This document shows, in pieces, positions 15,003 to 33,971 of a DNA stretch of 34,158 nucleotides. The stretch spans positions 1-34,158 of the forward strand of contig JAISMJ010000073.1 in NCBI GenBank assembly GCA_031276815.1, read 5' to 3'. Every line of letters begins with the position of its first letter. Positions within the stretch are counted from its first letter, which is position 1. The position numbers and the translations under genes were made by a program. The stretch is from Treponema sp. (GTDB lineage: Bacteria > Spirochaetota > Spirochaetia > Treponematales > Breznakiellaceae). The notes below the pieces were generated by a model. That model was not told where the DNA came from and searched no databases. It saw nothing but the letters and a program-made list of their open reading frames with translations.

Positions 15003-15734
15003 ATGACTCGTAACGTAACATATTCCGCTCTTGTTCTTCGCGTGCGCCCTGCGGGGGAGTCAAACCGCGAGGCGTTTTTTCTCACAGCCGAAAGCGGCAT
15101 TATCAAGGCGACGGTTTTTGGGGGACCAAAGAGTAAGCTGCGCTCTTATGTCTCGCCGTTTCATCAGGGGACACTGTGGGTATACCATGATACGGTGAAA
15201 GATTTTATGAAGACGACTGATTTTGACGTGACGCAATGGCGTCCCGGTTTGCGTGAGCTATACGAGCGTTCTATGGCTGCCGCGGCGGTTGCGGATACCA
15301 TTACGGCTACCCACGCCGGCGGCGGACAGTGGGCGGCTGCGCTTGACCACGCAGGAAGGACGCTTGATGCGCTTGACAGCGCCGATGCGCCTATGGCGTT
15401 GCGCGTGTTTTACCATTTTTTGTGGAATTGGATCGATCTGATTGGAGAAAAACCATCCTTGCGCGGGTGTTCTTTGTGCGGCTCCCCGTTTGACGGCGCC
15501 GTTTTGTACGCTCCGGTTGAAGGCGCGTTTCTGTGTCCTTCGTGCGGCGAAGGACATCACGGGTTGCCCCTGGGAACCGGCGCCAGAAAGTGGCTCGCCG
15601 CGGTAGAGAACCTGCCGCCCGCCGCATTGAACAGGTGGCTGCTGGATACGGGATCGCTTGCCCAGGCGCGCTCTGTAATAATGACGCTTATGGCGGGGCT
15701 TCTGGGCAGAAAGCTGGAAAGCTGGAATTGGTAA
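15003..15734 (+). CDS. recO: DNA repair protein RecO
   Basis: A 243-residue protein, normal length for RecO, which loads RecA at gaps together with RecR. The N-terminal OB-fold region is typical (TYSALVLRVRPAGESNREAFFLTAESGIIKATVFGG). A four-cysteine zinc site is present (GCSLCGSPF ... FLCPSCGEG), and the helical C-terminus follows. It starts 36 bp from the divergent HD-domain gene. A hairpin with U-tract at 15766-15787 follows the stop. Confidence 0.9.
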   Translation: MTRNVTYSALVLRVRPAGESNREAFFLTAESGIIKATVFGGPKSKLRSYVSPFHQGTLWVYHDTVKDFMKTTDFDVTQWRPGLRELYERSMAAAAVADTITATHAGGGQWAAALDHAGRTLDALDSADAPMALRVFYHFLWNWIDLIGEKPSLRGCSLCGSPFDGAVLYAPVEGAFLCPSCGEGHHGLPLGTGARKWLAAVENLPPAALNRWLLDTGSLAQARSVIMTLMAGLLGRKLESWNW

Positions 15735-15787: not shown

Positions 15788-15884
15788 ATACGTCCGCTTT
15801 TCCCGCAACCGCGCTCCCTATCCCTTCGTCTCGTGTTAACCTCGTTCTAACCATGCCCTTTCTACCATCTATATCCTAGGTGGT

Positions 15885-15910
15885 GTCGTCAAAAGGATCC
15901 TTTTGACGAC
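15885..15910. repeat. Perfect 26-bp palindrome
   Basis: GTCGTCAAAAGGA is followed directly by its exact reverse complement, with no loop, 150 bp after recO. It contains a BamHI-like GGATCC centre. Without a U-tract it is not an obvious terminator; it may be a protein-binding site or an element scar. Confidence 0.8.
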
Positions 15911-16208
15911 TCTCCCTAATAGACGACACATTTCGTCTATACGACCGTATTGCTACGGTATACGCAATCTTTTTTGCTTTGTCAAGGAGGGAAGCGTTGA
16001 CGAACCGGCGTCCGGTAATCTTCTCTGCGGTCAATACGGCACGGCTTCTCCAAGCCGCCGGGCATCACCTTGCCATCCTTCATCAGTACGTCATATCACC
16101 ATGAGCGATTTGGGAATATCCCACAGGCATGGGAAGAAACGCAGCGATTGACCTAGCCAGCCGGAACCCCGAGTCGCCTACCGACGGCGTCCCCAGCTAT
16201 GCTGGGAC

Positions 16209-16240
16209 GCGTAAACAGTCCTGTTATGTGCAGTTAGGGC
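16209..16240. repeat. attC-like recombination-site arm (left border of cassette)
   Basis: A 32-base sequence starting GCGTAAACAGTC and containing GTTATGTG, the form of an attC right-hand arm. It matches the reverse complement of 16774-16805 at 28 of 32 positions and resembles the arms of the site at 33191-33369. The upstream arm of this site is not recognisable. Confidence 0.6.
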
Positions 16241-16248
16241 GTACTCCA

Positions 16249-16705
16249 TTATATTTTATATAATTTTGTCTTTGTTCCTCCAACGGCTATACCAATACCA
16301 CAATTTGTAAATTCTACCGATGTTGCTTTTTCGTGTTTTATTGCTTTCTCTATGTTATTTTCTATGTCAACTATATATATTTCATCAAGCCCAATAAATG
16401 ATAATTTCCCATCATTGCTCCATGCAATTGAACCTAAATCATAAAATACGTCTTTTGTTTTAAAATTTTCTTTTATTAATTTTACGGCATGGGAGTCTAT
16501 ATTATAAATATATACCTTTGATTCATGTACTATATTACCATGTTCTTCACCGGCATAAAAAGATGTCATTATTGCCAAATTATTTTTATACAATGACAAT
16601 ATCCAAAATCTCTATTTGTATATGTTGAGGCGAAAATAATTTATTTGAATTGGGTAAAAATTTATGCCAAAAGCCATTATTTAATTTGAATGTTTTATTT
16701 ACCAT
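16249..16705 (-). pseudogene. Low-GC cassette gene with one frameshift (beta-propeller-like fragment)
   Basis: The track shows only the 116-residue 3' part with a TTG start. Reading further upstream in another frame gives ATG 16705 and MVNKTFKLNNGFWHKFLP...QIEILDIVIV, which runs into YKNNLAIMTSFYAGEEHGN if one base is skipped near 16603. The joined product is about 150 residues. The segment DLGSIAWSNDGKLSFIGLDEIYIVDIE resembles one or two WD40/beta-propeller blades. A well-formed promoter lies just upstream of ATG 16705. The AT-rich composition differs sharply from the flanking recO and kinase genes, indicating transfer. It is carried between inverted attC-like ends, in the usual place for an integron cassette gene but in reverse orientation to recO. 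A sequencing error could also explain the shift. Confidence 0.6.
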
Positions 16706-16711
16706 AAATAT

Positions 16712-16741
16712 TTTATACTATACTTGTTATTATTTTGTCAA
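16712..16741 (-). promoter_or_regulatory. Cassette promoter
   Basis: On the minus strand TTGACA (16736-16741), an 18-bp spacer and TATAAA (16712-16717), only about 7-10 bp before ATG 16705. The cassette gene would therefore be expressed independently of an integron promoter, with almost no leader. Confidence 0.55.
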
Positions 16742-16773
16742 TATTGATTTGTAATATATTCCAAAAAATTTTA

Positions 16774-16805
16774 GCCCTAATTGCGCATAAAACGACTGTT
16801 TACGC
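16774..16805. repeat. attC-like recombination-site arm (right border of cassette)
   Basis: Contains GCGCATAA and CTGTTTACGC, matching the left arm of the site at 33191 (CGCATAA..., CTGTTTACGCTTCG) and the inverted copy at 16209-16240. The opposite arm downstream is not recognisable, so the site seems to have lost its inside and far arm. Confidence 0.6.
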
Positions 16806-16914
16806 TTCGTCCTTCAGGTCTTGACATTCCCGCGCGATTCATGTTTCCGCTCCTTTTCCCCTATTCGGCTGGTAACACGCCGCCAAACCGCAGATTCGTA
16901 CCCGTCCGCCTCAA

Positions 16915-18618
16915 TTACTCGTTACGCATACCAGCAAAACAAACGGTTATCTTCGTTCCCCGATCCTCACGGCTTTCTAACGCGATCTCCGCTTTGTGGA
17001 GCGCGGCTATATGTTTGACAATCGCCAGCCCAAGACCCGTACCGCCCGTTTTTTTGGAACGCGATTTGTCCGCCCGGTAAAACCGTTCGAACACCCTGCC
17101 CTGCGCTTCTTGGGGAATTCCAATGCCCGTATCGGATACGGACAGGGTAACCTCGCCATTGCCTTTCGTAATCTCAACCGTTACCGCGCCCTCCGGCTTG
17201 TTGTATTTGATGGCATTGTCGATCAGGTTGAAACAGAGTTCCGCCATCATGGAGCGGACAGCCCTGACAGAGACGCCTTCTTCGGCGGGAAGGGTGACGG
17301 AAACGCCCAGTTCGGCGGCTTTCCGCATGAGCGGCGCGGCAGCCTCCTTCACGACAGCCGCAATGTCTACCACAGTAAACAGCCCGCCGCTTTTTCCCTC
17401 GTCTAAACGCGACAGCAGCATAATATCTTCTATCAGCGTAATCAAGCGCCCGGACTCGTCTTTGATTGTACGGATACACGCGGCTTTGTCGCCCTCCTGA
17501 ACCATGCCGCCGTCCAGCATCTCCGCGTACCCGTATATGCTCGTAAGCGGCGTTTTCAGTTCGTGGGAAACATTAGCCGAGAATTCACGCCGCAATTTTT
17601 CAGCCTTCATGGCTTCCGTCATGTCAAGAAAGAGCAGCACCGCGCCGTTGTCCGTAACCGGACTGAAATAGACGCGGTAGTTCCTCCCCGCCCGCTCCAT
17701 GTCCATTTCGCTGCGGCTGCCGGACAGCGCGCCACGCATACACTCCAGAAGCCTGCTGTCGCGCAGAAGCTCTACAATGTTTTTCCCTTCTACCGGCGTG
17801 GACGCGCCGAACATCCGCAGGGCGCTCTTGTTTGCGGAAAGCAGTACGCCCCGGCGGTCAAGCAGCGCCGCGCCCTCGCTCATGTTTTCCATAATCGCGT
17901 GTATAGCGTCCGCCCGTTCCTGTAAAGACGCATACTGCTCGGCGATCTGCGCGCGCTGGTTTTCAATGGCGCGGACAAACGGGGTAAGCTCATCATAGGG
18001 CGCGGTTATTTCCCCGTCAAGACGCGCGGTATTCAGTGGTTTGACGATACGGTCGGTCAGACTGCCGGCTGCGCCGTAGCAGATGACGATGACGCAGAGC
18101 AGGACGCCGAACACCGCGGGCAGCGCGCGTTCAAAGAGTGAAAAGACGCTGCCGGTTGTTTTCGCAATACGCACGACACAGCCATTCGGCAACGCCGCCG
18201 CGCAATAGTAGGTTTCCTGTTTCACGGTATCGGAAAAACGGCGGTTTTCCCCAAAACCGGACGCCCGCGCCGCGCGGACTTCCTCCCGATCCGCATGATT
18301 TTCGAGCCGTTCCGCTTCAACGGTATTGTCGTACAGCACGCTCCCGTCCGCTCCGATAATCGAAACCCGCATGTCCTCCGCAAGCGCGGAACATATCCGC
18401 TCCGGTATATAGACGGTTGGTACGCGCCCGTTTGATTCGTTTGCTTCAAACGCTTGTGAAACCGCCAGCGTATCTTTAAGCGCATAGACCCGCCGCTTCA
18501 TGTCCGCGCGCAGATATGCTGAAAAGTGATGGTAAAAAATGAAGCACAATACGCCGGATACGAGGACAAGACTCATGCCGGCGAGCAGCGTCATGCTCGT
18601 ATATATACGCTTTTTCAT
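16915..18618 (-). CDS. PhoR-type membrane sensor histidine kinase
   Basis: A 567-residue kinase. A transmembrane segment at about 8-30, a periplasmic domain (about 31-162) and a second membrane segment at about 165-187 are followed by a PAS-like region (about 235-330, AIMENMSEGAALLDRRGVLL), the HisKA box FSANVSHELKTPLTS with the phosphorylated His near 350, and the HATPase domain (NLIDNAIKYNKPEG, DTGIGIP, GGTGLGLAI). The order and PAS sequence are those of PhoR-like kinases. The gene begins 6 bp after the response-regulator stop. The signal sensed cannot be read from the sequence; a phosphate role is only a family default, and no pst genes are in view. Confidence 0.9.
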   Translation of the reverse strand: MKKRIYTSMTLLAGMSLVLVSGVLCFIFYHHFSAYLRADMKRRVYALKDTLAVSQAFEANESNGRVPTVYIPERICSALAEDMRVSIIGADGSVLYDNTVEAERLENHADREEVRAARASGFGENRRFSDTVKQETYYCAAALPNGCVVRIAKTTGSVFSLFERALPAVFGVLLCVIVICYGAAGSLTDRIVKPLNTARLDGEITAPYDELTPFVRAIENQRAQIAEQYASLQERADAIHAIMENMSEGAALLDRRGVLLSANKSALRMFGASTPVEGKNIVELLRDSRLLECMRGALSGSRSEMDMERAGRNYRVYFSPVTDNGAVLLFLDMTEAMKAEKLRREFSANVSHELKTPLTSIYGYAEMLDGGMVQEGDKAACIRTIKDESGRLITLIEDIMLLSRLDEGKSGGLFTVVDIAAVVKEAAAPLMRKAAELGVSVTLPAEEGVSVRAVRSMMAELCFNLIDNAIKYNKPEGAVTVEITKGNGEVTLSVSDTGIGIPQEAQGRVFERFYRADKSRSKKTGGTGLGLAIVKHIAALHKAEIALESREDRGTKITVCFAGMRNE

Positions 18619-33190: not shown

Positions 33191-33369
33191 CGCATAACGG
33201 GACTGTTTACGCTTCGCCGCAGTAGCGGCTCGGGCTACGTTTTGGCTAGGTCATTCCGCTACGCTTCATTCCCACGCCAAAACTCTGCCACATTTTTGCA
33301 GCCCTGGTCTTGCTACGCAAGCCCTTATTCGGGCTGCAAAACCGTCGTAAACAGCCGGAACGTTATGTG
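33191..33369. repeat. attC-like imperfect palindrome, 179 bp
   Basis: The left arm has GCATAACGGGACTGTTTACG (33192-33211); the right arm has CGTAAACAG (33346-33354) and CGTTATGTG (33361-33369). The arms pair except for a few unpaired bases on the right (CCGGAA against GGGA), the extrahelical-base feature that guides strand choice in attC sites. Inside are further stems: GTTTTGGC/GCCAAAAC and GCAGCCC/GGGCTGC. The arms match those at 16209-16240 and 16774-16805. Longer than most attC sites and the family here is inferred, so "attC-like" is the limit. Confidence 0.65.
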
Positions 33370-33456
33370 TAATTTGGACTGAAATTAGTTGGAAAAATAT
33401 TGAAAAAATGTTTTTTAGAAATAAAATAAACACAAAGGATAATCTGGTTAAATATT

Positions 33457-33920
33457 ATGGAGAATAAAAAAGTTTGCACTGAATGTTATTCAGATAATCC
33501 CCGTAAACACCGTTGAATGGCGCAAGGGAATGTCTTGAAAATCATAGACAATATATATGCTCGACCTGTGGAAGAATTGTGTGTATTGATTTGGGCGGAG
33601 AAAGAAAGGCGAGATGTTTTTCCCTTTTAAGACAAAAGAAATGGCAATATTATATTTAAAATGTGCCGAAATAATTACAAATTCAAATTGTGAAATTTAT
33701 GAAGTAATATATAAAAGAGGAGACAAAAGATACAAAATATTTGAAACGGAAGATGAGTTAAATAACTTTCTGGAAAAATAAAGATGTAAAATGTGAAAAC
33801 AAATGTCCTGTATATATTAAGAAAAAACACAAGACAGTATCGGAAAAACAGGTGAGATATTTAACAAAAGATGAAGTGGAAAAATATATTACCGAACGGG
33901 AAGAAATGGGAATAAAATAA
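33457..33920 (+). pseudogene. Low-GC zinc-ribbon cassette gene with at least three frameshifts
   Basis: In pieces: ATG 33457 reads MENKKVCTECYSDNPRKHR and stop; another frame reads NHRQYICSTCGRIVCIDLGG and ERKARCF; a third reads FFPFKTKEMAILYLKCAEIITN and IYEVIYKRGDKRYKIFETEDELNNFLEK and stop; a fourth reads DVKCENKCPVYIKKKHK and VSEKQVRYLTKDEVEKYITEREEMGIK and stop at 33920. Together they make one protein of about 150 residues with two CxxC knuckles (CTEC, CSTC) of a zinc ribbon. The composition is much more AT-rich than rimO. It follows the attC-like site in the position of a cassette gene. It has no recognised function, and the lesions suggest it is dead. Confidence 0.6.
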
Positions 33921-33971
33921 TTATGTAAAAAACATTGAAAGTAATAATGGGAATGTTATAAAAGATAATGG

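Follow-up and report, generated by a model that had tools for sequence, protein, structure and literature searches.

Published definitions of integron integrases rest on an additional domain (PMC9668308, PMC8352920), which serves both to define these enzymes and to detect them in genomes (PMC7790495, PMC9668308, PMC8352920). The gain of this domain has been described as the step from double-strand to single-strand recombination (PMC7790495). The closest described systems are the chromosomal integrons of Treponema denticola and Treponema succinifaciens, in which an attI site lies next to the gene for a canonical IntI integrase and the cassettes are carried on attC sites of 63-132 bp with a GTT core (PMC3607928). 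The same study, by Wu et al. in 2013, reported integrons in several treponemes and none in termite-gut species (PMC3607928). Cassettes can also be met away from a complete integron, either in attC clusters lacking an integrase, termed CALIN (PMC8618304, PMC9668308), or, according to the summary of Loot et al. 2024 given in PMC12901181, as insertions at attG sites outside arrays in the chromosome.

Here we describe a segment at 16209-16805 of a 34,158-nt stretch of DNA (hereafter the window) from a termite-gut Treponema sp. (assembly GCA_031276815.1, contig JAISMJ010000073.1, positions 1 to 34,158). With a probability of roughly 0.84, we regard this segment as a stranded and decayed cassette that derives from an integron system on the chromosomes of termite-gut spirochaetes; the integrase of this system, TGR, is related to IntI and does without the additional (I2) domain. 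Like the integrons of T. denticola and T. succinifaciens, this system has attI next to the integrase, attC cassettes and a GTT core, but its integrase is without the additional domain, its attC sites measure about 180 bp, and its hosts belong to the very group in which integrons had not been found (PMC3607928). The window genome is like a CALIN in having attC sites and cassettes and no intact integrase that we could find; it differs in that its sites, many of them single and truncated, are dispersed across 31 contigs. The likeness to attG insertion, as far as the summary in PMC12901181 describes it, lies in cassettes found outside arrays, and the differences are that the integrase here is of another type and that the chromosomal insertion is a putative one.

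Results

An isolated cassette between chromosomal genes

The segment is bounded by inverted ends of 35 nt (16206-16240 and 16774-16808), which are 86% complementary and lie 533 nt apart. Their arm GGACTGTTTACGC has exact copies at 16209-16221 (minus strand) and at 33200-33212 (plus strand), the latter within a complete site near the end of the window, and a copy with one mismatch at 16793-16805 (plus strand); when up to two mismatches are allowed, three matches are found against 0.8 expected by chance. The interior has a GC content of 26% and contains an open reading frame of 116 codons on the minus strand (16249-16599). Because the 5' part of the gene sits in a different frame from this open reading frame, the gene is broken (Table 1). 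Its promoter escaped a strict promoter scan, which requires a T that the -10 box does not have at its sixth position. No homologue of the gene was detected among 149 family genomes, its only match was a weak, WD40-like one, and Rfam gave no match at the locus. A sequence-only reading had described an AT-rich segment with inverted ends matching the arms of the site at 33191 and with a reversed, promoter-led, frame-broken gene inside, and this description is borne out in each of these respects.

To score the ends, PWMs were derived from the starts and ends of other cassettes. On the minus strand, the cassette-start PWM gives the right end 36.6 bits, with a random maximum of 19.6, and the cassette-end PWM gives the left end 32.0 bits, with a random maximum of 16.7. 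Since the right end fits a start and the left end fits an end, the two are not equivalent and delimit one minus-oriented cassette, with its 5' start at about 16791 in the degenerate core TTTATGCG and its 3' end at an R'' box (16223-16230, GTTATGTG on the plus strand). These fits agree with the earlier proposal of an integron-type cassette isolated between chromosomal genes. The accompanying claim that only half sites flank it holds for the right end, while the left end continues to about 16125 as a truncated attC, which consists of the R''/L'' arm (16209-16230) and about half of a site, its 3' half being missing. In the half site on the right, the GCGTAAACAGTCG arm resembles an inverted L''/R'' arm, and one may speculate that a core joined to an inverted arm at 16784-16808 is the product to be expected of top-strand or inverted recombination.

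Table 1. Features of the window (positions on the forward strand).
Feature	Position	Strand	Basis or remark
Left neighbour gene, chromosomal	15003..15734	+	recO by our own reading of the sequence
Truncated attC	16125..16230	-	site HMM positions 3-115; downstream of the cassette gene
Integron cassette	16223..16791	-	start and end PWM scores
Cassette gene	16249..16705	-	ATG at 16705; frame broken near 16590-16610
Cassette promoter	16712..16741	-	TTGACA 16741-16736, 18-nt spacer, TATAAA 16717-16712; sequence read directly
Half site at cassette start	16784..16808	-	R'-like core joined to GCGTAAACAGTCG; sequence read directly
Right neighbour gene, chromosomal	16915..18618	-	PhoR-type histidine kinase by our own reading
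Complete attC-like site	33191..33370	+	boxes, DNA fold, covariation
Remnant of next cassette	33363..33940	+	start PWM 39.5 bits; right limit approximate

A hairpin attC site and its arrays

The site at 33191-33370 has the anatomy of an attC, which runs from R'' (GCATAAC) through a short spacer, L'', a variable middle, L' (CGTAAACAGCC) and the spacer GGAAC to R' (GTTATGY). In the complete site of the window, R'' GCATAAC lies at 33192-33198, L'' GG(A)CTGTTTACG, with one bulged base, at 33200-33211, L' CGTAAACAGCC at 33346-33356 and R' GTTATGT at 33362-33368. The whole is an imperfect palindrome whose bottom strand folds, as single-stranded DNA, at -46.5 kcal/mol (z -6.3), and whose top strand folds more weakly (-42.1 kcal/mol, z -5.2). 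Across 33 sites from many genomes, 93.5% of the cells of the hairpin are paired and two-sided changes occur at 17 pairs; none of 500 shuffles paired as highly, and slid structures pair 26-42% of cells. The hairpin shows strong compensatory covariation, and the site has the features of an integron attC, with a GTT core, a hairpin, and R and L boxes that pair. The site search found no attC after 33383 up to the end of the window.

Far from being solitary, as had been assumed, the window cassette shares its genome (2.37 Mb) with about 50 sites, 48 of which were matched by the site at 33191 and which are spread over 31 contigs. Several stand in small arrays, many are single and truncated, and many of the contigs carry core genes. 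After split site matches had been merged, neighbouring sites less than 2 kb apart had the same orientation in 65 cases and the opposite one in 6 (about 130 related loci). The intervals between sites are mostly 0.3-1.0 kb long, AT-rich, and have a conserved start motif at the core in common. The longest open reading frame reads with the site in 59/65 cassettes, seven of these coming from one contig that entered the set twice, which amounts to the array of one-gene cassettes in a single orientation that characterizes integrons. Of 166 cassette starts, 28% have a promoter-like motif no further than 150 nt from the core, against 1.3% in shuffles, so cassettes are frequently self-promoted. A comparison for shared cassettes yielded few pairs.

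One array of the window genome (C106, L037, 3511-5486) lies beside carA and reads, in one orientation, site, BrnT-like gene, site, PIN-domain gene pair, site; its two adjacent cassettes are toxin-antitoxin-like (all gene names by our own reading).

Integrons with an unusual integrase in relatives

Relatives of the window genome encode TGR, a tyrosine recombinase some 390 aa in length. The contigs that carry it often stop just downstream of its gene, and most of the loci examined show in this position a GTTATGCG/GTTAGGCG-like core and, after it, a cassette start. With the cassette-start PWM, trained solely on attC-adjacent sequences, as the profile, an attI core was found no more than 600 nt downstream of TGR in 28/33 loci at p<=0.05 and in 23/33 at p<=0.01. 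One case is a closed genome of 4.65 Mb (G277), whose integron spans C1:3518822-3560499 (L307, L308, L328): TGR occupies 3,518,822-3,520,075, an attI core follows about 164 nt after the match, and 42 attC sites extend from 3,521,925 to 3,560,499, all on the plus strand and with RYYYAAC-like and GTTRRRY-like boxes, the cassettes being forward in 38 of the 38 measured. A second closed genome (G090, 4,059,867 bp) has TGR, attI and 3 attC sites at C1:2031219-2036000 (L309), and complete integrons with TGR, core and 3-4 attC sites were found at L092/L312 (L092 is WRLP01000026.1) and in G030. An integrase gene with an adjacent attI that leads into an array is thus present in relatives, the window genome having a relic only. 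IntI over the cut-off was found in none of the eight TGR-integron genomes examined, including the closed G277 and G090. Of 36 family genomes that bear TGR, 24 also have this attC sequence type, and 43 genomes have attC sites and no detected TGR; this co-occurrence is only partial and is therefore not used as proof.

A separate group of three sites lies at 326.8-330.0 kb in G277. In other families of the order, seven genomes (G037, G039, G048, G056, G057, G100 and G120) have integrases of the TGR type, for the most part accompanied by an attI-like core, and no attC of this sequence type; they probably hold integrons with other attC families.

The integrase lacks the region of the additional domain

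TGR scores 186-214 bits against TIGR02249, short of the curated cut-off of 265. Its scores lie around the cut-off of 220 bits of NF040815 (site-specific tyrosine recombinase/integron integrase), a broad XerA-type model, with 222 bits for TGR of G002, barely above, and 211 bits for TGR of G030, slightly below. Measured from GKGxKDR to HxLRHSFA, the segment is 115 aa long in 6 spirochaete IntIs, 79-104 aa in Xer proteins and 73-75 aa in the 34 TGRs compared, all of which lack some 41 residues in the stretch that joins the catalytic motifs GKGxKDR and HxLRH. Of the structures in the PDB, TGR matches Vibrio IntI4 best (2a3v, E 9e-41) and shares with it the catalytic core and a C-terminal SPL; TGR skips chain residues 179-240, the region of the additional domain, which remain unaligned. 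Judged by these alignments, the residues missing from TGR are the region of the I2 domain, which in canonical IntI lies near patch III.

A midpoint-rooted tree, in which the IntIs were spirochaete ones only, separates IntI and TGR together from Xer (100/100) and recovers a TGR clade (88/75), which places TGR, on this tree, as the sister group of spirochaete IntI with Xer outside. TGR therefore groups with IntI and not with Xer, and is without the I2 domain and the score of a canonical IntI. The link that had been drawn to the integron of T. denticola fails on this point, as no canonical IntI is found here and the integrase of the relatives belongs to a clade of its own in which the additional domain is missing. 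A single-sequence AlphaFold model of TGR (pLDDT 38) was too poor for use, and hhalign gave no support (probability 0.6) for relating the N-terminal extension of TGR to that of spirochaete IntI. By eye, a W-D...W..P motif is visible in some members of both groups.

The window genome itself, which is 80.6% complete, contains no canonical IntI over the cut-off. Of TGR it retains a relic alone, which lies at the very beginning of a contig (C128:3-227) and is interrupted by an in-frame stop. It has attC clusters, and no intact integrase was found in it; given the completeness of 80.6%, an intact TGR copy could be missing from the assembly. In a relative of the same genus (G003), the copy of TGR is interrupted by many stops. 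XerC/XerD-like recombinases are present in the window genome too. Cassettes would become stranded, like the one in the window, once their integrase had decayed, and the segment does reflect the movement and decay of cassettes that the sequence-only reading had envisaged. That reading had also looked to the genome for intI and more cassettes, and would have yielded to a lack of integrase or further sites: the cassettes are there in numbers, IntI is not, and the integrase is lacking in the window genome, apart from the relic, and present in relatives.

Discussion

The system has the structural features of an integron that we examined and is predicted to function as one, although its integrase fails the test for a canonical IntI. 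In the mechanism that we propose, TGR would presumably act as the catalyst and recombine the attI core GTTATGCG, just downstream of its own gene, with the R' core of the hairpin attC of about 180 nt, which may react as a folded single strand. The reaction would add one-gene, often self-promoted cassettes in a single orientation, and would sometimes put cassettes into other chromosomal places. The window cassette may have left an array by such an off-target insertion and lost its function after TGR decayed in the lineage.

How the cassette came to stand alone is the point on which another account deserves most attention. The hybrid half site on its right and the truncated attC on its left are both remnants, as would be left if a local array had decayed in place by deletion of the neighbouring cassettes and no single cassette had ever been inserted off target. 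We think this possible and yet the less probable course, since the recO/rimO region was free of sites in six relatives of the same genus, which favours insertion in the lineage of the window (no base-exact empty site was found), and since sites are spread over 31 contigs, many with core genes. It is improbable, in our view, that TGR is a bystander in a true integron whose cassettes are moved by XerC/XerD or by a canonical IntI that escaped detection. Xer-like proteins are indeed present, and TGR is missing from many genomes that bear sites; against this, an attI core follows TGR in 28/33 loci, two closed genomes have no IntI over the cut-off, and IntI, rather than Xer, is the closest relative of TGR.

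Many dispersed copies, inverted ends of 35 nt and the frequency of truncated copies might suggest a palindromic MITE-like repeat, whose transposon ends we would have taken for sites and ordinary DNA between insertions for cassettes. We hold this very unlikely. Neighbours of such a repeat should have no preferred orientation, and the ratio here is 65:6; the intervals carry a conserved start motif at the core, and 42 co-oriented sites follow the integrase in a closed genome. As the sites are co-oriented, mostly 0.3-1.0 kb apart and associated with one forward gene each, and relatives have integrase and attI ahead of them, they are not the inverted repeats of an ordinary transposon, the outcome that would have undone the sequence-only reading. 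Least credible of all is a pdif-like Xer module with a gene between inverted dif-like sites: it would suit the inverted ends around one gene and the ACTTCGTATAA stretch of some sites, which in our own reading resembles what we take to be a XerC half site, but sites elsewhere are direct and not alternating and form long covarying hairpins, so that orientation and array structure reject it together with the MITE-like repeat.

In the light of these TGR integrons, the earlier finding that integrons are absent from treponemes of the termite gut (PMC3607928) calls for revision. Surveys based on the additional domain would presumably report such integrons, at best, as clusters without an integrase. 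A literature search limited to open-licence papers returned no report of an integron integrase without this domain, and an integron of 42 sites with such an enzyme makes the idea of a passage from double-strand to single-strand recombination directly testable. We lean slightly towards the view that working integrons of spirochaetes form a clade whose integrase either lost the I2 helix, which is held necessary for recombining folded single-stranded attC, or has always been without it, and that they would represent either a living pre-I2 stage in the evolution of integrons or another way of recognizing attC, by sequence or as a double strand.

The cassettes may also reach beyond spirochaetes. 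Identical 20-nt copies of the attC arm were met in MAGs from the termite gut that are labelled Campylobacteraceae, Helicobacteraceae, Planctomycetaceae, Bacteroidales and Clostridiales (L124, L069, L101, L074, L072 and others). Provided that the binning is right, near-identical arms in MAGs labelled Campylobacterota, Bacteroidota, Planctomycetota and Firmicutes suggest a common cassette pool in the termite gut. One cassette without an open reading frame is present both in a Campylobacteraceae MAG (L124) and in a spirochaete (L203), the two copies being 78% identical; single arm matches in two Lachnospiraceae may be due to chance.

Two further repeats lie near the window cassette. One, at 15956-16069, directly adjoins the truncated attC, and the same combination of truncated attC and repeat tail recurs at C128:9396-9509, C117:21148-21252 and C18:16634-16694, making four places in all, as if arrays ended in a preferred sequence. 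The other, at 15877-15918, is an abutting 21-nt inverted repeat beginning TAGGTGGTGTCGTCAAAAGGATCC; a similar sequence lies on C65, and the two belong to a separate small repeat family.
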